The notes below the pieces were generated by a model that did no database searches, was not told where the DNA came from, and saw nothing but the letters and a program-made list of their open reading frames with translations. A stretch of 64,000 bases of DNA from positions 1 to 64,000 of the forward strand of contig CALVBB010000001.1 in assembly GCA_944325705.1 (NCBI GenBank). The letters are read 5' to 3'. Positions within the stretch are counted from its first letter, which is position 1, and every line of letters starts with the position of its first letter. Position numbers and translations under genes: made by a program. Shown piece by piece: positions 37 through 63,434 of the stretch. The DNA comes from Candidatus Gastranaerophilales bacterium (lineage in GTDB: Bacteria > Cyanobacteriota > Vampirovibrionia > Gastranaerophilales > Gastranaerophilaceae).

Positions 37-1250
37 ATGGAAAAGTCAAGTATAGCAAGGATTTGCGGGGGGGGGGGGCAAGTAGTTTAAGCTCCTTAAC
101 CGGCACAGAGCAAGGGATACAGGCAATCGAAGAGGGTGAAGCCTTTAGTTGGCGTGCATTTTGGGGGCAGTTGATTAAGAGAAAATTCCCCTTGCCACCC
201 TGTCTTGGATTTGCTCCACGCTCGGAAAGTTTAGCTTATGAGCCTACGGTTCAACACCGCTCAATTTCCTCGCAACCCGGATTTGTTCGCTTCGCTCACT
301 TCATCCCCTCTCACAAACCAATTCACCGGATTGTTTTGTTCGATAGAGTGCAAATCCGCTTTACAAAAGGGGATGATGTAAGAGCCTCCCTTCCTAAGGG
401 AGGTGGTGCGCAGCACCGGAGGGTTTTGAAGGAAACCACACCCCCTTCACGCTTCACCCGCCGAAAATCCGTCATCCGGATTATTCGGGATGTCGGAAAA
501 GCGTGGTTTCCCGACACCTTACGGGCTGGGTTCGCTATCGCTCACACGGCGCCCTCCCGAAAATCCGGTTTCACATTAGCCGAAGTGCTGATTACCCTTG
601 GGATTATCGGTGTAGTGGCTGCTATGACGTTGCCGACAGTTCTTAACAACATTCAGAACAAACAACTTGAAACAGCGCTTAAAAAGTCTTACTCACTTCT
701 TTCTCAGGTAACCCAGAGAGTAGTTATGGAGGATTTCGGGGGCATGGTTGATGCAGAGAACGGAAAAGAAATTAGTTCTTATTTTGTAAAGCATTATAAA
801 AACGGAAATATTTGCGGAAGCGGCAAAACTTCCGGCTGCCCTGTTACAACCGGTGGCGATGAAGCCTGTAATTTCATGAAGCAAAATTATAAAAATTTTA
901 ACGGAAAATCTAACGGCGGCTGCGTTGGTAATGATATTATTTCTAATACGATTGACAGTACGACACTATATTTTGATGCACCAAGAGCTGGTGAAGGGGC
1001 TGAAACAGAAGAAAATATTCTTATGGCTGTGGATGTTAACGGCTGGCAGAAGAAACCTAACCGCTGGGGACATGACCTTTTTATGTTCCAGCTTACAAAA
1101 GACGGAAAACTTTTACCTATGGGTTCTAAAGATTCTGCATATCCTGAAGAAACCTATTGCAGTTTAACATCGACTTCCGTGAAAAACGGCCGTGGTTGTA
1201 CTGTAAAAGCACTTAATGATACTGACTATTTTAAAAAACTTCCGAAATAA
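37..1250 (+). CDS. Pseudopilin behind a G-tract leader; out of frame as assembled
   Basis: A strong ribosome site (AAAGGAG) precedes ATG 37, which opens MEKSSIARIC and enters a run of 12 G. In the assembled frame it stops four codons after the run. The frame one base back is open from the run to 1250 and encodes a type IV pilin-like protein with KSG then FTLAEVLITLGIIGVVAAM (about codon 180), a prepilin cleavage site and N-terminal helix. The open frame has no convincing own start: TTG 63 has no ribosome site. A run of 10 or 13 G would join ATG to pilin. The roughly 180-residue stretch between leader and helix is built partly of repeat DNA found elsewhere in the window (near 24880-25120). The mature part is Cys-rich with CNFMK and CSLTS segments. 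Pilin-like nature is clear; cellular role is unknown. Upstream sequence is cut by the window edge. Confidence 0.75.
67..78 (+). repeat. Mononucleotide G12 tract (contingency-locus candidate)
   Basis: Twelve consecutive G inside the leader of the pseudopilin. Length decides which frame follows: 10 or 13 G would open the pilin frame, while 11 or 12 leads to a stop within about 12 nt. Homopolymer length may also be an assembly artefact. Confidence 0.85.
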
Positions 1251-5909: not shown

Positions 5910-5940
5910 TCATAAAATGAAGAATTATTAAGCAAAAGTG

Positions 5941-6025
5941 CTATTGTAACAAAATGTAAAGATGAATTTTAAAGTGGCTGAAATTCAATTATACTCTGAG
6001 ATAGGATAGGGTGGGGTGGGGTGGC
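5941..6025 (+). promoter_or_regulatory. Regulon-like upstream element with G-rich pentamer array (copy A)
   Basis: TGTAAC, an AT-rich stretch, GGCTGAAATTCAATTATACT and CTGAG are followed by five pentamers (ATAGG ATAGG GTGGG GTGGG GTGGC). The same order recurs before the genes at 38169 and 63435. TATACT could be a -10, which would put the pentamers at the start of the transcript. Confidence 0.6.
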
Positions 6026-6104
6026 GGTATAGCAATCTTTTTGGGCAAACTCCTTTTTTAAAAGTATAACAAATGCGAGATTGAGTATAAGAAAGGATAT
6101 TACT

Positions 6105-24530: not shown

Positions 24531-25199
24531 AAAAAAGACGGTAAGACGATAAGTGCATCAAAAAAGTGAAGTGTGAAGGGTAAGGAGTGAAGGGGGCTAC
24601 AAAGTTGAAATGTTGAAGGGATGAAAGGTTTAACATTAGATATGTAATTCTGAAGCATTAATTGTTGCCGCTTGCATGAGGAGTAGGTCGGATTTACTAA
24701 TCCGATGACATAACTGCACCGGATAAGATTATAACACATTATAAAACTGGTGTCCGATACCGGACACCAGTTTCGCTCTCTCTTATTTAATTTCCCCTCT
24801 ACCAGAGAACGGGGGAAAATCTTTTCGCCCTCAGCACGGGTTTTGCTTCGCTCCACCCTGCCGAAAATCCGTCTCTTGGATTTGCTCCATGCTGCTCTCG
24901 CTCTGTCGGCTCAACCCGCTCGCAATCCGGACTATCGTCCGTCCTCAAATCCGCTTCTTGCTCGTTCGCGTTTAACGGGACTTCAGACTTTCTTTTCACA
25001 AGCTTTGCTTGCTCCAAAGAAAGTTCTCCGCCCTCAGCTCACTCGCGCCTCTTGGATTTACTCCATGCTCGGAAACTTTCGCTTTTGAACCTACGGTTCA
25101 AGTCCGCTCAATTCGTTCGCGTTTAACGGGACTTCGGACTTTCTTTTCGCAAGCTTTGCCTGCTCCAAAGAAAGTTCCTCCGCCCTCAGCTCACTCGCG
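24531..25199. repeat. Non-coding block of dispersed repeats between the glycosyltransferase and nrdJ
   Basis: No gene is seen here. It holds degenerate GTTGAAATG-type repeats (24600-24630), a TCGGATTTACTAATCCGA hairpin (24690-24710), a 13-bp perfect hairpin (24744-24773, AAACTGGTGTCCG) and G+C-richer repeats from 24830. The latter resemble the leader region of the pseudopilin at 200-320. An imperfect direct repeat of about 85 bp sits at about 24965-25049 and 25113-25199. Confidence 0.6.
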
Positions 25200-34432: not shown

Positions 34433-34857
34433 TTATAATTTTGCTCCTTCCTTATAGTTTTTATATTCAAGTTTATCTTTTCCGGTTAGAATATTAATTA
34501 TACTTTTTCCACCATTAGGTGCCCAGGTACTCGGTTGAAGTTTGTCTGTATAGACTCCAAGAAAACCAGCAGGTCGGAATTACAAATCCGAGTGGCAGAA
34601 CTGTTGAAAAGTTGAAAGGTTGAATGGGTGAAAGGTTAACATTAGACGTGTCATTCTGAAACGTAAATAGTTGCGTCTCACAATAGTTGCAACTGTTCAG
34701 AAGCTCTTTGTTATTAGCGCCCGCAATGGAAAAAGATTTGAAAAAATCCCCGCGCTTAATATTTTCTAAAAAAGTGTGCCAGAAATTCTTGTCCTGAGCG
34801 GAAGTTAATCTACCCCCCCCCCCCTGAGAGTTTTGAAGCTATAGTTGTGTTTTGCAT
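34433..34857 (-). pseudogene. Broken G-tract leader ORF with a separate C-terminal coding remnant
   Basis: A strong site (AAGGAGGATA) precedes minus-strand ATG 34857, which reads MQNTTIASKLS then a run of 12 G (C at 34813-34824) and a stop. The leader matches the MEKSSIARIS pattern of the pseudopilin leaders. With 11 G the frame would stay open to 34515 and begin RLTSAQDKNFWHTFLENIKR, followed by repeat-derived sequence. From about 34580 to 34433 another frame is open without a start and ends LEYKNYKEGAKL, like the tail of a former gene. I read this as a G-tract gene disrupted by repeats and frameshift. Confidence 0.5.
34813..34824 (-). repeat. Mononucleotide tract (12 C on +, 12 G on coding strand)
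   Basis: The run lies in the leader of the minus-strand ORF starting at 34857. A length of 11 would open the downstream frame; 12 gives an immediate TAG. Confidence 0.8.
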
Positions 34858-37992: not shown

Positions 37993-38009
37993 TAGTAATA
38001 TGTGAAAAT

Positions 38010-38085
38010 ATGTAACAATTTCAAAATGGTTGTAAACGGCTGAAATTCAATTATACCCTGAGATAGGGTAGGATGGAGCAGGGTG
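38010..38085 (+). promoter_or_regulatory. Regulon-like upstream element with pentamer array (copy B)
   Basis: TGTAAC, an AT-rich run, GGCTGAAATTCAATTATACC and CTGAG, then five diverged pentamers (ATAGG GTAGG ATGGA GCAGG GTGGA). The five-base spacing of G pairs is kept although bases differ from copies A and C. Confidence 0.6.
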
Positions 38086-38168
38086 GAGATATTAGCGGAT
38101 TTTGAAATCTTTTTCTTCGAAATGTTTTTATATATATAAGAGTTATATAGTAAGAGAGAGGTTTACTG

Positions 38169-42366: not shown

Positions 42367-43165
42367 ATGGAAAAGTCAAGTATAGCAAGGGTTTCCGGGG
42401 GGGGGGGCAAATAGTTTAAGCTCCTTAACCGGCAAATGGCGGGGATTACAGGGGGCAGGCGCAGAGAGAAAGCTTTGTCGCCGCCAATTCGGATTTACGC
42501 TTGCCGAGGTTTTAATAACACTCGGGATAATTGGTGTGGTTGCGGCAATGACAATGCCGGCGGTTATTAATAATTATGGTAAACAGGAGGCCGTTGTCAG
42601 ACTTAAAAAGTTTTCTTCTACTATGCAGAATGCTTTGAATTTGGCTACAGTTGACTATGGTCCTGTGCAAACATGGCAATTTCCGGAAAAACAAAACGAT
42701 GCTGATGAAATTAATAGTTTTGTCAATACTTATTTGTTTCCGTATTTGACCGGAATAGAAAAGTGTAATGCAGGAGAAACAAATTGTAAGCGTTTTGTGA
42801 AAAATTTATATAGTAATTCTGTGAATTATTTGCCTGTATATGTTTTTAGTGACGGTGGTTGTTTTGGTCTTGTTACCGGCGGAGCAAGCGAGCTATCTTC
42901 AAATATTCATTTTTTGTTTGATTATAACTGTTTAGGAAAACCAAATAAATACGGCAAGGATATTTTCCAATTTGTAGTTAAGTTTGGGAACGGGCGGCAA
43001 TATCCAAAGTTTAATAGCGGAGGTCTAAGAATGTCAAATGCAAAAACAAGAGAAGATTTAATAGATTTATGTAAAAATATAACAAGTGAATACCAGAAAT
43101 CTGACTGTGCTGCTCTAATTGAATATGATGGCTGGCAAATCAAAGATGATTATCCATGGTGGTAA
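42367..43165 (+). CDS. Pseudopilin behind a G11 leader; out of frame as assembled
   Basis: AAAGGAG precedes ATG 42367, which reads MEKSSIARVS, enters 11 G and stops at TAG. The frame one base forward is open from the run and contains SSLSSLTGKWRGLQG, then RRQFG and FTLAEVLITLGIIGVVAAM at about 42494, a clean prepilin cleavage site. At a corrected length of 10 or 13 G the leader would be about 43 residues, the shortest of the family. The mature part (about 220 residues) has a DYGPVQTWQFPE segment, several Cys and a YDGWQIKDDYPWW end, matching the paralogue ending at 57014. Role unknown. Confidence 0.78.
42397..42407 (+). repeat. Mononucleotide G11 tract
   Basis: Same leader position as at 67, 48842 and 55873 but one base shorter. 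One G fewer, or two more, would open the pilin frame. Confidence 0.85.
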
Positions 43166-47756: not shown

Positions 47757-48218
47757 ATGGCATTCAGTTCATCATCAGGTAAAAAGAATAAAGGTTTTAC
47801 GGACATAAACATAACACCGCTAACTGATATTTTTCTGGTACTGTTAATCATAATGATGGTAGTTGCACCGACATTCCAGTCAATGGATAACACGATTACA
47901 ATACCGGAGATTAACAGCGGGGTATCTATTGAGCAAAAAAATGCTACTGTTTCAATAACTCAAGACGGCATTATGTATGTAAACGGCAAAGAGATAAATC
48001 CTGATACGCTTACTGATGAACTACTTGCACTAAAACCTTCCTTAGAAAAACTGGAAGTGGTAGTAAAGGCTGACGAGAGGGTTAAAAGTTCCGAGATAAT
48101 GAAAGTGATGAACGCGGCTCAGGACGCCGAGTTTAAAAAACTAATCGTAGCGGGCGAGCCGTTAACCAAAAAAGAACAGAAAGATTTAAAAAACAAGTCC
48201 GGAAGGCAGGGAGCGTAA
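47757..48218 (+). CDS. ExbD/TolR-type stator protein, copy 1
   Basis: A 153-residue inner-membrane protein with one helix carrying the conserved Asp (DINITPLTDIFLVLLIIMMV), then a periplasmic domain. It has a Lys-rich C-terminal tail (KKEQKDLKNKSGRQGA) that copy 2 lacks. It ends 3 nt before copy 2. ExbD works as the proton-driven partner of ExbB. Confidence 0.95.
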   Translation: MAFSSSSGKKNKGFTDINITPLTDIFLVLLIIMMVVAPTFQSMDNTITIPEINSGVSIEQKNATVSITQDGIMYVNGKEINPDTLTDELLALKPSLEKLEVVVKADERVKSSEIMKVMNAAQDAEFKKLIVAGEPLTKKEQKDLKNKSGRQGA

Positions 48219-48221
48219 GCT

Positions 48222-48605
48222 ATGAATCGTGATACATTCAGTGATATAAACATAACACCGTTAACCGATATTTTTCTGGTGCTGCTTATTATAATGATGG
48301 TGATAGCACCGCTTTTAGACCAGCAGGGGCTTAATCTTACGGTTCCGGAAAATGTTGCTGAGGAGCAGGCAAATAAAGATGCAAAAATTTTAACGGTAAC
48401 GGTTTCTGCAGATAACAGATATTATATAGACGGTGAAGAAGTTTCAATTCCGCAGCTTGAAAGCGTATTGAAAACTCAGGCAAAGGCATACCCTGACGGT
48501 ATGATGATTCAAACTGATGGAGAGGCAACCCACGGCGCTGTTGTAAAGCTTATGGACAGTGCAAGAAACTCCGGCGTTACAAGTATATCAGTTTCTGAAG
48601 TATGA
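48222..48605 (+). CDS. ExbD/TolR-type stator protein, copy 2
   Basis: This 127-residue paralogue of the preceding gene is nearly identical over the membrane helix at protein and DNA level, but diverges in the periplasmic part (PLLDQQGLNLTVPENV). Two different ExbDs with one ExbB suggests a heteromeric stator, as in some TonB and TolQ-like systems. Confidence 0.94.
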   Translation: MNRDTFSDINITPLTDIFLVLLIIMMVIAPLLDQQGLNLTVPENVAEEQANKDAKILTVTVSADNRYYIDGEEVSIPQLESVLKTQAKAYPDGMMIQTDGEATHGAVVKLMDSARNSGVTSISVSEV

Positions 48606-48811: not shown

Positions 48812-50004
48812 ATGGAAAAGTCAAGTATAGCAAGGATTTCCGGGGGGAGGGGGCAAGTAGTTTAAGCTCCTTAATCGGCACAGAGCAAGGGATACAGGCA
48901 GCCGAAGAGGGTAAAGCCTTAAGTCGGCGTGCATTCTGGCGAAAACTGATTGAAATAAAATCCCCTCAGTCCCTCTTGAAAAAAGGGAGTGAAAATCTAT
49001 GTCCTTCTTTTGAGGGAGGACCGAAATCTATGATTTCGAGGAGGGGTAGCTCAAAGTCAAGGTGTGGCGCGGAAGTGCCTGAGGGTTTACCCTCACCAGA
49101 ATTTGTAAACTCGCATACTCTCATAAACAAATTCTGCCCTCTTACAGAGAGAGAGGGCGAAAGGCACAAGTCATATCGTGTTACACATTTTGCAGGGCTC
49201 AGCTGTTCCCTTTGTATCGCAAAGAGAGAGGGCAATAGAGAACGCTTCACCCGTCGCAAAGCCGCTTTCACGCTTGCAGAGGTCTTAATCACCATCGGGA
49301 TTATCGGTGTAGTAGCTGCCATGACATTACCAACCCTTGTCCAGAGGCATCGGGAAAAACAGACCGTATCGGCGTTGAAATCTGCCTATTCAATTTTTTC
49401 TCAAGCATATCTTATGGCTGTTAAGGAGTATGGTACGCTTGACAACTGGGGATTTGCCGGTATAGAAAAAGTTGAACATGAAGATGGCTCCGTCGATTAC
49501 GTTTCAGAAGAAAACGGTGTGTCGAATAAAGTTATATATGATAAATTTGCAAAATATCTCAAAGTCGGCAAGCATTGTTCGCCTGGTGATGAAACCTGCT
49601 TAAAGACTGTAACCAAAGGAACTTTTGAATCAGGAATATTAACTAATGGTATGGCATTTAACTTTGTTCAAAGAAGCGGGGATTGTTCTTCTAAAGCAGG
49701 TTCGACAAAAAATTTACAGAGCGTCTGTGCAGATATTACGGTTGATATTGACGGGCCTTCTAAAGGTGAAAATGCCTGGGGAAAAGACTGGTTCAGGTTT
49801 TATATTACTAAATACGGGGTTCTGCCAAAAGGGACGCCGGATTCAACCTCGTTTACTTTTTCAAAGAATTGTATTAACGCAAGTCAGGCAACATACGGCG
49901 GAAAATACGGCGAGGCCTGTACTGCATGGGTACTATATAACGAAAATATGGATTATCTTCACTGTGACGATTTAAGCTGGGAAGGTAAAACTAAATGTAA
50001 ATAA
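48812..50004 (+). CDS. Pseudopilin behind an interrupted G-tract leader; out of frame
   Basis: AAAGGAG precedes ATG 48812, reading MEKSSIARISGGRGQVV then stop. The tract is GGGGGGAGGGGG, one substitution in 12. The frame one base back is open from the tract to 50004 and contains SSLSSLIGTEQGIQA, RRAFWRKLIEIK, repeat-derived sequence, RRKAA and FTLAEVLITIGIIGVVAAM (about 49270). The mature part is about 245 residues with Cys pairs (CSPGDETC; CSSKAG) and WGKDWFRFYITKYG. The interrupted tract should slip less, so this copy may be locked off. A TTG at 48976 has no ribosome site. Confidence 0.75.
48842..48853 (+). repeat. Interrupted G tract (6 G, A, 5 G)
   Basis: Same site as the pure runs in the paralogous leaders, with one A. 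The substitution would stabilise tract length. Confidence 0.85.
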
Positions 50005-54288: not shown

Positions 54289-54910
54289 ACTGACCTCACA
54301 ACCCTAATTATTGTAAATTGTTTCTGCCAGTATCCTATCATGAGAGTTTTTTTTGCGCAAGTTTTGTTACTAAATCCTGTCAAGTCTTTTTACATCTTGT
54401 AATATTTTGGGGCGATGTGGTGATAAAGAAAAGACGTTAGGACGATAAGACGCTAAGAGCGACAAAAAGTAAACCGTGAAGGGTGAGGAGTGAAGCACAG
54501 TTCCCTCTCCCCCTGAGGAGCAAAGCGAATAGGCGAAGAATGCGCCTTGTGAGCCTGCTTCCGGAACACAGTGCAGCTGAGAGGGTTAGGGGCGAGGGGA
54601 TTTTTCTATTGCCCTCTCTCACTGTGATACAAAGGGAACCGCTGAGTTCTGTGAAGCGTGTAGTATGCCTTGTGCTGAGGGTTGCTTGGGCGGAAGAAGG
54701 TGTGATGATTTGCTAATTCGATGCATCTTAGTGTTCTAAGAAGCTATAATGCAATGGACAATAAGAGGCATATTGGCACTAGTTAAATACAAAATATAAA
54801 GAAATATTAAAAATAAGAATAATTCCTACTTTACAAAATATTTATTTTATACTATTATAGCTAAGTAGAAAATTGATAAACAAAATGGTATTTTGAGAAA
54901 GGTGGAAATT
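54289..54910. repeat. Non-coding gap with an inverted copy of the pseudopilin-leader repeat
   Basis: I see no gene here. From 54480 the G+C rises. The part at about 54611-54650 (TTGCCCTCTCTC onward) is the reverse complement of DNA inside the pseudopilin leaders near 49185-49235 and 56215-56265. It starts with GTGAAGGGTGAGGAGTGAAG near 54476, which also resembles 24570-24595. Confidence 0.55.
54830..54858 (+). promoter_or_regulatory. Promoter of the rubrerythrin gene
   Basis: TTTACA, a 17-nt spacer and TATTAT, about 52 nt before ATG 54911. Confidence 0.6.
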
Positions 54911-55760: not shown

Positions 55761-55842
55761 ACAAAGTAAAAGTTATATGTCATCCTGAACTAGTTTGCAG
55801 GATCTAAATAGAGAAGAAGAAAAAGGCAAAGGAGATTAAGCA

Positions 55843-57014
55843 ATGGAAAAGTCAAGTATAGCAAGGGTTTCCGGGGGGGGGGGGTAAATAGTTTAAGCTC
55901 CTTAACCGGCACAGAGCAAGGGATACAGGCAGCCGAAGAGGGTAAAGCCTTAAGTTGGCGTGCATTTTTGCGGAAACTGATTGAAATAAAATCCCCCCTG
56001 CCCGCCTTAAAAAAAGGGAGTGAAAATCTATGTCCTTCTTTTGAGGGAGGACCGAAATCTATGATTTCGAGGAGGGGTAGCTCAAAGTCAAGGTGTGGCG
56101 CGGAAGTGCCTGAGGGTTTACCCTCACCAGAATTTGTAAACTCGCATACTCTCATAAACAAATTCTGCCCTCTTACAGAGAGAGAGGGCGAAAGGCACAA
56201 GTCATATCCTGTTACACATTTTGCAGGGCTCAGCTGTTCCCTTTGTATCACAGAGGGAATGGGCAATAGCGAACGCTTCACTCCTCACTATTCACCACTC
56301 ACCTGCCGAAAATCCGCTTTTACTCTGGCAGAAGTGCTGATTACCCTTGGAATTATCGGAATTGTTGCTGCTATGACCTTGCCGACAGTAATAAATAAGT
56401 ATCAAAAAGTTGAAACAACCACAAAGTTAAAACGAGTGTATTCTCTTCTGACAAACGCAACACAGCGTGCAATAAATGATTATGGTCCTTCTCAATACTG
56501 GGATTATCCGATAAAAGATGAAGATGAAGGTGCCTATCTGCCTTCAAGCATTACTCAGGATGAGTTTTTTAACAGGTATTATGCTCCGTACCTGAAAACT
56601 TCAAAACTAAATCAAAATCTTCTCGGTAAAAGTTACAAAGTGTATAATTTTAATAAACAGGATGCAGGATATGATGGTAATCAAACTGGGCTTGGTACCC
56701 GTTTTAGATTGAATGATGGTATGTGCATTACAATGTGGTCAAATCACCAATATTTTGTGTTTACAACGGATTTGAACTGTGAAAAACCGCCTAATATACT
56801 CGGAAAAGATGTTTTTGATATAGCAGAGTTGTACTGGGAAGGGAATAAAACACTTCAATCCCCGCCGAGGCTTGCGCGTATAAAAAATGAAGATGACCGT
56901 AAAGAAGCAATTGAAGAATGCAAAAGTGATGATTATGTAAGCGGGAATGCAACCATCTGTTTTGCTATATTTGTATATGACGGCTGGCAGTTTAAGGCGG
57001 ATTACCCGTGGTGA
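55843..57014 (+). CDS. Pseudopilin behind a G12 leader; out of frame as assembled
   Basis: AAAGGAG precedes ATG 55843, reading MEKSSIARVS, 12 G, then an immediate TAA. The frame one base back is open from the run to 57014. It contains SSLSSLTGTEQGIQA, RAFLRKLIEIK, repeat-derived sequence almost identical to that of the gene at 48812, then CRKSA and FTLAEVLITLGIIGIVAAM (about 56319). The mature part is about 230 residues with DYGPSQYWDYP and YDGWQFKADYPW, close to the paralogue at 42367. Adding one G would join leader and pilin. Confidence 0.78.
55873..55884 (+). repeat. Mononucleotide G12 tract
   Basis: Same position in the leader as the other tracts. 10 or 13 G would open the pilin frame. 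Confidence 0.85.
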
Positions 57015-63215: not shown

Positions 63216-63260
63216 AAAATGTACTCTCCTGCACAGAAAGCAAATTCGTTATAATTATGA

Positions 63261-63345
63261 TTTTGTAACAAAATGTAAATATAAATTTTAATATGCCTGA
63301 GCATCAATTATACTCTGAGATAGGATAGGATAGGATAGGATAGGG
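63261..63345 (+). promoter_or_regulatory. Regulon-like upstream element with pentamer array (copy C)
   Basis: TGTAAC, an AT-rich run, CCTGAGCATCAATTATACT and CTGAG, then five perfect ATAGG pentamers. This is the most regular of the three arrays. Confidence 0.65.
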
Positions 63346-63434
63346 GGGCGTGTAGCAATCTTTTCGGGTAGAAATACTTTTTAAAAATATAAGTATTATT
63401 TATATAAAGAGTATAAACACGAAAGGAGATTAAT

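Follow-up and report, generated by a model that had tools for sequence, protein, structure and literature searches.

A putative poly-G switch and a repeat-built leader in type IV prepilin genes of an uncultured Gastranaerophilales bacterium

The window analysed here, a 64 000 nt stretch of a Candidatus Gastranaerophilales genome, contains a prepilin gene which, in its ON reading, extends on the forward strand from an ATG at 48812 to a stop codon at 50004, and which is out of frame as assembled. The frame listed by the ORF finder runs from 48976 to 50004 and is open through repeat DNA into the pilin, and the TTG at 48976, its listed start, has no ribosome site in the sequence. The pilin frame is also open upstream of 48976, back to a G-rich tract at 48842–48853. 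The conserved start is ATG 48812, which is preceded by AAAGGAG, with a 6-nt Shine–Dalgarno match, and opens a head of ten codons (ATG GAA AAG TCA AGT ATA GCA AGG ATT TCC) followed by the poly-G tract. This tract (GGGGGGAGGGGG, 48842–48853, forward strand) is 12 nt long with one A inside, and head and pilin are in frame when its length is 1 mod 3. Beyond it there are stops in two of the three frames, while the third reaches the pilin via the repeats. At the assembled length of 12 nt, translation from the ATG yields MEKSSIARISGGRGQVV and then meets a stop, an OFF state. With a tract length of 1 mod 3 the product reads SSLSSLIGTEQGIQAAEEGKAL..., followed by the repeat block and then the pilin FTLAEVLITIGIIGVVAAMTLP.

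In the pilin frame, the long leader (48854–49266, forward strand) comprises a head segment (SSLSSL...) plus repeat DNA, which is partly palindromic. The repeat block (48960–49255, forward strand) is itself one of the 35 places in the genome that match its DNA in full or in part. Within the repeat lies an in-frame ATG (49030–49032, forward strand) with GGAGG 10 nt upstream, a possible bypass start. The mature type IV pilin (49267–50001, forward strand) has 245 aa and the N-terminus FTLAEVLIT. A previous sequence-only reading had described intergenic repeat DNA read as part of a very long prepilin leader. The repeat-built stretch is indeed read into the pilin, but the gene begins further upstream, and the head, with ATG 48812, the poly-G tract and the out-of-frame pilin, was overlooked.

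All four pilin genes in the window carry the same head (ribosome site, ATG and poly-G), and all four are OFF. Gene 1 (37–1250, forward strand) has a G12 tract at 67–78, gene 2 (42367–43165, forward strand) a G11 tract at 42397–42407 and a short leader, and gene 4 (55843–57014, forward strand) a G12 tract at 55873–55884. Counted from the ATG in the ON reading and worked out from the coordinates, the leaders are 152 aa in the target, 178 aa in gene 1 and 159 aa in gene 4, within the 150–180 residues proposed earlier, but 42 aa in gene 2. The segment 48764–49063 is repeated at 55795–56094 with 94% identity. Leader DNA is also found outside any pilin. An inverted copy of part of the repeat lies at 54602–54675 (reverse strand), with 49182–49242 and 54602–54662 being 82% complementary, in agreement with the inverse copy previously placed near 54480–54660. 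A copy of part of the gene 1 leader lies at 25050–25113 (forward strand). The likeness claimed between 200–320 and 24880–25120 is present, at 87.5% between 203–266 and 25050–25113, but it covers just 64 bp, less than claimed.

The window also contains an orphan switch head (MQNTTIASKLS plus leader) with a G12 tract at 34813–34824 on the reverse strand, behind which no pilin motif was found. This head is of the MQNT.IASKL type, has a 98-codon leader and is situated between a 938-aa ORF and a 354-aa ORF. The former resembles ileS.

Several features support assignment of the target product to the type IV pilins. The sequence AFTLAEV has a small residue before the Phe and a Glu at +5, as in the prepilin methylation motif. 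PF07963 scored over its cut-off in three of the four window pilins, as did TIGR02532 in the same three; in gene 1 neither profile did so. A model of the mature target (pLDDT 87.9) has a helix at residues 3–55 and a beta-rich head, i.e. the long helix and globular head of such pilins. A Foldseek comparison of this model with the PDB gave no match at E < 0.001, and after realignment the top four structures were type IV pilins with modest Z scores (3.7–4.5). The genome encodes a prepilin peptidase (PF01478, 28.8 bits against a cut-off of 26.5) and pilus or secretion ATPases (PF00437, seven matches, five over cut-off). Type IV pilin leaders are described, in the excerpted text of PMC10191384, as cytoplasmic, variable in length and cut after Gly or Ala. 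On that description a long leader need not block export.

When up to 3 mismatches are allowed, the genome contains 17 copies of the 24-nt start of the head, and none of the 16 judged was ON; the 17th is cut by a contig end and was excluded from frame judging. Tracts of at least 10 G number 62. In a set drawn from loci around tracts of G10 or longer and around heads, 42 poly-G tracts precede a pilin motif. Ten of these have a stop in the leader before the pilin and were left unscored, and the remaining 32 are open, with 2 ON and 30 OFF. The ribosome site at the start matches over 5–6 nt in 29 of the 32 intact genes and over 4 nt in the other three. The heads are of several unlike kinds (ME..SSIAR, MQNT.IASKLR, MLKF.. 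and MKTID..), indicating a repertoire rather than one duplicated gene. As in a contingency locus, the homopolymer tract lies in the 5' coding region and the other frames are stopped. Three genes (L111, L113 and L115) have in common an AT-rich, stop-rich stretch of 57 codons between tract and pilin; the other leaders differ.

Judged from sequence, the target very probably belongs to a repertoire of dozens of type IV prepilin genes that are phase variable. Translation would begin at the conserved ATG about 30 nt ahead of the poly-G, which is mostly 10–12 long, and replication slippage would alter the length of the tract. Two of every three tract lengths would lead to an early stop, and the third would allow the leader to be read through to the type IV pilin. 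The leader would then remain cytoplasmic and be removed by the prepilin peptidase, with assembly of the pilin into a pilus and a role at the cell surface as the presumed outcome.

The preponderance of OFF states extends beyond this genome. Among the matches listed, other genomes contained 136 tract–pilin sites in at least 120 loci, of which 115 were scorable; 18 were unscored as no start was found and three because of a stop in the leader. The 115 scored sites, again among the matches listed, comprise 10 ON, 55 that need an additional G and 50 that need one fewer. When tract lengths are permuted against frame classes, 42.0 ON are expected, and in 20 000 shuffles the number never fell to the 10 observed. 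For lengths 10–12 in all genomes, 12 of 140 genes are ON against 51.0 expected by permutation, a test that took seven sites from G012, a sister-species genome, and not the later 18. The latter are part of 24 G012 sites (six unscored), and two of the 18 are ON. Overall, 141 of the 154 scored genes are OFF. Paralogues within one genome are not independent; even so, a count restricted to one site per genome gave a mean of 2.8 ON among 40 genomes.

A length preference was ruled out as the source of this excess, since the avoidance runs both ways: in other genomes, 41 genes with an ON length of 11 have a tract of 10 and four a tract of 11, and 28 genes with an ON length of 10 have a tract of 11 and four a tract of 10. 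So strong an OFF excess would not be expected from free switching, and needs either selection against the ON state or another route of expression.

Poly-G genes without a pilin provide a comparison within the same genome. Ten were assessed, these being the tracts with clear frames on both sides, with ON or OFF read by eye and other pilin-less tracts omitted; five are ON, compared with 2 of 32 pilins (Fisher P 0.005). The OFF excess thus looks specific to pilins. L099, L103, L112, L133 and L141 are ON, and L091:1501, L101, L134, L144 and L152 are OFF. From their sequences, these genes look like further switch genes.

Comparison with the sister species reveals one clean pair in which tract length differs between related genomes with a change of frame, as in contingency loci. 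L091:2741 has G11 and is OFF, whereas its G012 counterpart, L158, has G12 and is ON; the 45 nt before the tract are identical and the sequence after it is nearly so, leaving a difference of a single G. Among 13 flank-matched tract pairs from the two genomes, 7 differ in length, but several of the 13 also differ in bases beside the tract and some are possibly paralogues, and length differences of such pairs are not clean proof of slippage.

The pilin bodies gave dN/dS values of 0.065–0.26 in nine of ten similar pairs, five of the nine being pairs in which both genes are OFF. The tenth gave no value, as synonymous sites were saturated. For the target and its G012 orthologue the pilin value is 0.090. 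By this measure, the pilin bodies of OFF genes are evidently under purifying selection, and OFF genes are not dead.

Conserved bodies in silent genes would also be expected if RNA polymerase or the ribosome slipped at the tract in a programmed manner, so that OFF genes steadily yielded a little in-frame pilin with no change in the DNA. This would account for 141 of 154 genes being OFF while their bodies are under purifying selection. However, the changes needed are about equally +1 and −1 (55 and 50, among the matches listed), some genes are ON, and in one gene the change of a single G separates the OFF state from the ON state of the sister species. Programmed slippage is consequently an unlikely basis for the pattern, although it fares better than the other alternatives considered below.

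The sequence between the tract and the pilin is maintained as coding sequence. Among 37 genes with a leader of 60 codons or more, 31 have an open pilin frame, and other frames are open in 5 of 185 tests. The corresponding values are 15/20 and 5/100 (other five frames) for the window's own genome, and 16/17 and 0/85 for G012; the 42 rows of this openness analysis are not row for row the 42 used in ON/OFF scoring. As the pilin frame is open and other frames rarely are, the leaders are kept open. Dinucleotide shuffles remained open in one fixed frame in 3 of 2000 cases for the target leader, 10 of 2000 for gene 1 and 0 of 2000 for gene 4, so the openness suspected in the sequence-only reading does exceed chance. 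Frequent stops in sister pilin genes had been named there as evidence to the contrary. A stop before the pilin was found in 10 of 42 genes, and in 5 of the 20 own-genome leaders of at least 60 codons, which goes some way in that direction.

The content of the leader, by contrast with its frame, is highly variable. L014 and L069 have surroundings that are about 90% identical and leaders of 98 and 183 codons, respectively. The leaders of L004 and L048 (144 and 139 codons) are mosaics, and L271, with a body 79% identical to that of L004, has a leader of 8 codons. The G012 orthologue of the target has a pilin that is 93% identical and a leader of at least 240 codons (to the contig end), with the same kinds of repeat arranged otherwise. 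Among 29 target homologues inspected, 17 lack any run of 7 G, and in these the pilin is preceded by 45 codons or fewer. The earlier suggestion that repeats have been drafted into protein fits well with these leaders of very different length on orthologous pilins. Leader content is quickly replaced, as in a disposable region on which an open frame is the sole requirement. The head peptide, in a weak test on 12 sequences, gave a pN/pS of 0.71 in frame and of 0.75 and 0.91 in the two other frames; this weak constraint counts against the switch reading. If it is removed, its sequence and length would be nearly indifferent provided that it is open, and dispersed repeats could gather there. In addition, the window pilins L003 and L004 have 692 bp of head, tract and leader in common at 87%, and their bodies are unlike. 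This suggests that the switch head may pass from pilin to pilin.

The favoured reading, a slippage-operated switch, may form part of a silent library in which dozens of pilins, each one G from expression, are kept mostly OFF by selection, with one or a few displayed per cell; the leader would be a safe landing ground for repeats and would let the head pass between unlike bodies. This wider proposal is evenly poised between acceptance and doubt.

A second alternative is that translation of the pilin begins within the leader, at a start codon provided by the repeat, with the poly-G not in control. Both the target and gene 4 have an ATG in the pilin frame within the repeat, 10 nt from a GGAGG; the target tract is interrupted, yet the body remains conserved (dN/dS 0.090); and one or more internal in-frame starts behind a ribosome-like site, with TTG and GTG counted, occur in 10 of the 32 intact genes. 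The other 22 lack one, and the pilin frame shows no enrichment for them (12/55 compared with 32/115 and 10/54). By these counts internal initiation finds no support as a general rule, and it would also fail to explain why the ATG is conserved and why the leader is open throughout; its probability is low, slightly below that of programmed slippage. The target itself may be a special case. Three other tracts with an A inside were found (L153, L154 and L155), and in these the post-tract frame meets a stop before the pilin or the pilin was not found. The A in the target tract should slow slippage, and together with the plausible internal start from the repeat it raises the possibility that the target gene has left the switch.

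As its second option, the sequence-only reading had put forward selection on the repeats that keeps one of their frames free of stops. The repeat is palindromic in part, with a fold z of −3.58 for 49074–49165 and of −1.32 and +1.38 for two other stretches. In the own genome, all 6 leader places are stop-free in the target's frame, as are 2 of the 7 places elsewhere, with a stop or break in the other five; in G012 there is no stop in 28 of 34 matches of any kind. If the target copy is substituted at random, 10.9 stops are predicted for the DNA copies of the own genome that lie outside leaders; these have 5, and 15 of 20 are stop-free (12.4 predicted); a second set, in which copies from both genomes are mixed, has 10 stops against 18.6. 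These shortfalls, and the G012 count, are what one-frame selection would produce. However, leader copies show a comparable deficit (3 stops against 6.3), the non-leader rows include some truncated or broken leaders, and copies outside leaders may be what is left of earlier ones. An open leader was, moreover, the source of the query, which biases look-alikes towards openness. Stop counts therefore cannot separate selection on the repeat from descent from open leaders.

More informative is the frame in which the repeat is read. A different frame of this repeat is used in L302 (= L105), L300 and L306, each of which has a stop in the frame that the target uses, and these are all three of the leader copies with such a stop. 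L105 is one of the two ON genes, and its repeat frame would stop in the target's copy. Leaders thus use the repeat in two frames rather than in a single conserved one, which speaks against one-frame selection. The proposal is weakened, and we regard it as improbable, a little more so than internal initiation. Dispersed palindromic repeats in frame within genes are known as Rickettsia palindromic elements, according to the excerpted text of PMC10969869, and the repeat described here has the same character. Unlike those elements as they are described there (PMC10969869), the present repeats are concentrated in a single gene family, in a region that tolerates them, and more than one of their frames is used. 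By analogy with Rickettsia palindromic elements, the arrangement fits a disposable leader in which dispersed elements would be tolerated.

The tract–pilin layout has a restricted distribution among the genomes sampled. A scan for G10, a short gap and FTLAEVLIT matched at least 120 stretches; as it demands G10 or longer and a short leader, it is no census. The 80 listed of the at least 120 matches comprise 57 from Candidatus Gastranaerophilales or Melainabacteria, 13 from uncultured bacterium, five from Candidatus Scatousia, two each from Bacterium and Fusobacterium sp. CAG:439, and one from Muribaculaceae. A reversed control pattern gave no match among the rows listed. In the order, 52 of 192 genomes have the layout, all within the window's family (52/170), with 0 of 22 in other families. 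A phylum sample outside the window's family gave 0 of 216, three of the 216 being also among the 22. No head and no tract–pilin layout was found in the viral contigs scanned. That the G tracts are miscalled or the genes dead copies is very improbable: homopolymers are hard to sequence and the leader is interrupted by a stop in 10 of 42 cases, but the layout occurs in 52 of 170 family genomes and in MAGs of many projects, the ON frame is avoided in both directions, unlike in random error, and the bodies are under purifying selection.

Phase variation by homopolymers is best known from pathogens. In the poly-G contingency genes of Neisseria, which are surface genes, translation is turned ON or OFF by homopolymer length, and in pilC the tract lies in a gene for a pilus-associated adhesin. 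In the present case, unlike pilC, the tract is found in a large pilin family. A study of Neisseria meningitidis reportedly listed 115 candidate phase-variable genes of mixed kinds; here a single family, the type IV pilins, would have dozens of switches in one genome, that of an uncultured, non-photosynthetic lineage of the animal gut.

A closer parallel is Bifidobacterium breve, also a gut commensal, in which a G tract lies within the gene that leads a pilus cluster and replication slippage brings that gene into frame, as stated in the excerpted text of PMC9187656. There, two sortase-dependent pilus clusters are involved in the strain studied, whereas here there are tens of type IV prepilin genes, and the repeat-built leader found here has no mention for B. 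breve in those excerpts (PMC9187656). For type IV pilins with long leaders, no length like the 150 to 240 or more repeat-built residues of the present leaders appears in the excerpts of PMC10191384. No report of phase variation or pilin switches in Gastranaerophilales or Melainabacteria was found in the open literature searched, which included portions of PMC5877343 and PMC4040986, with subscription papers and preprints lying outside the search.

With nearly all pilins OFF and one step from ON, the repertoire points to strong selection on the pilin displayed, for which host immunity, phages or attachment are candidate forces. In many such pilins the start is likely to be misplaced by automatic annotation. 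The leader may also offer a clean case of repeat DNA turned coding, because that part of the product would be discarded.

Two further features of the window may be recorded. Just upstream of the target, at 47757–48605, there are two adjacent small membrane genes that are 86% alike over 69 bp. In appearance they resemble ExbD/TolR. Elsewhere, an 89-bp block ending in G/A-rich short repeats is present in three copies, at 5939–6027, 38001–38089 and 63258–63346.
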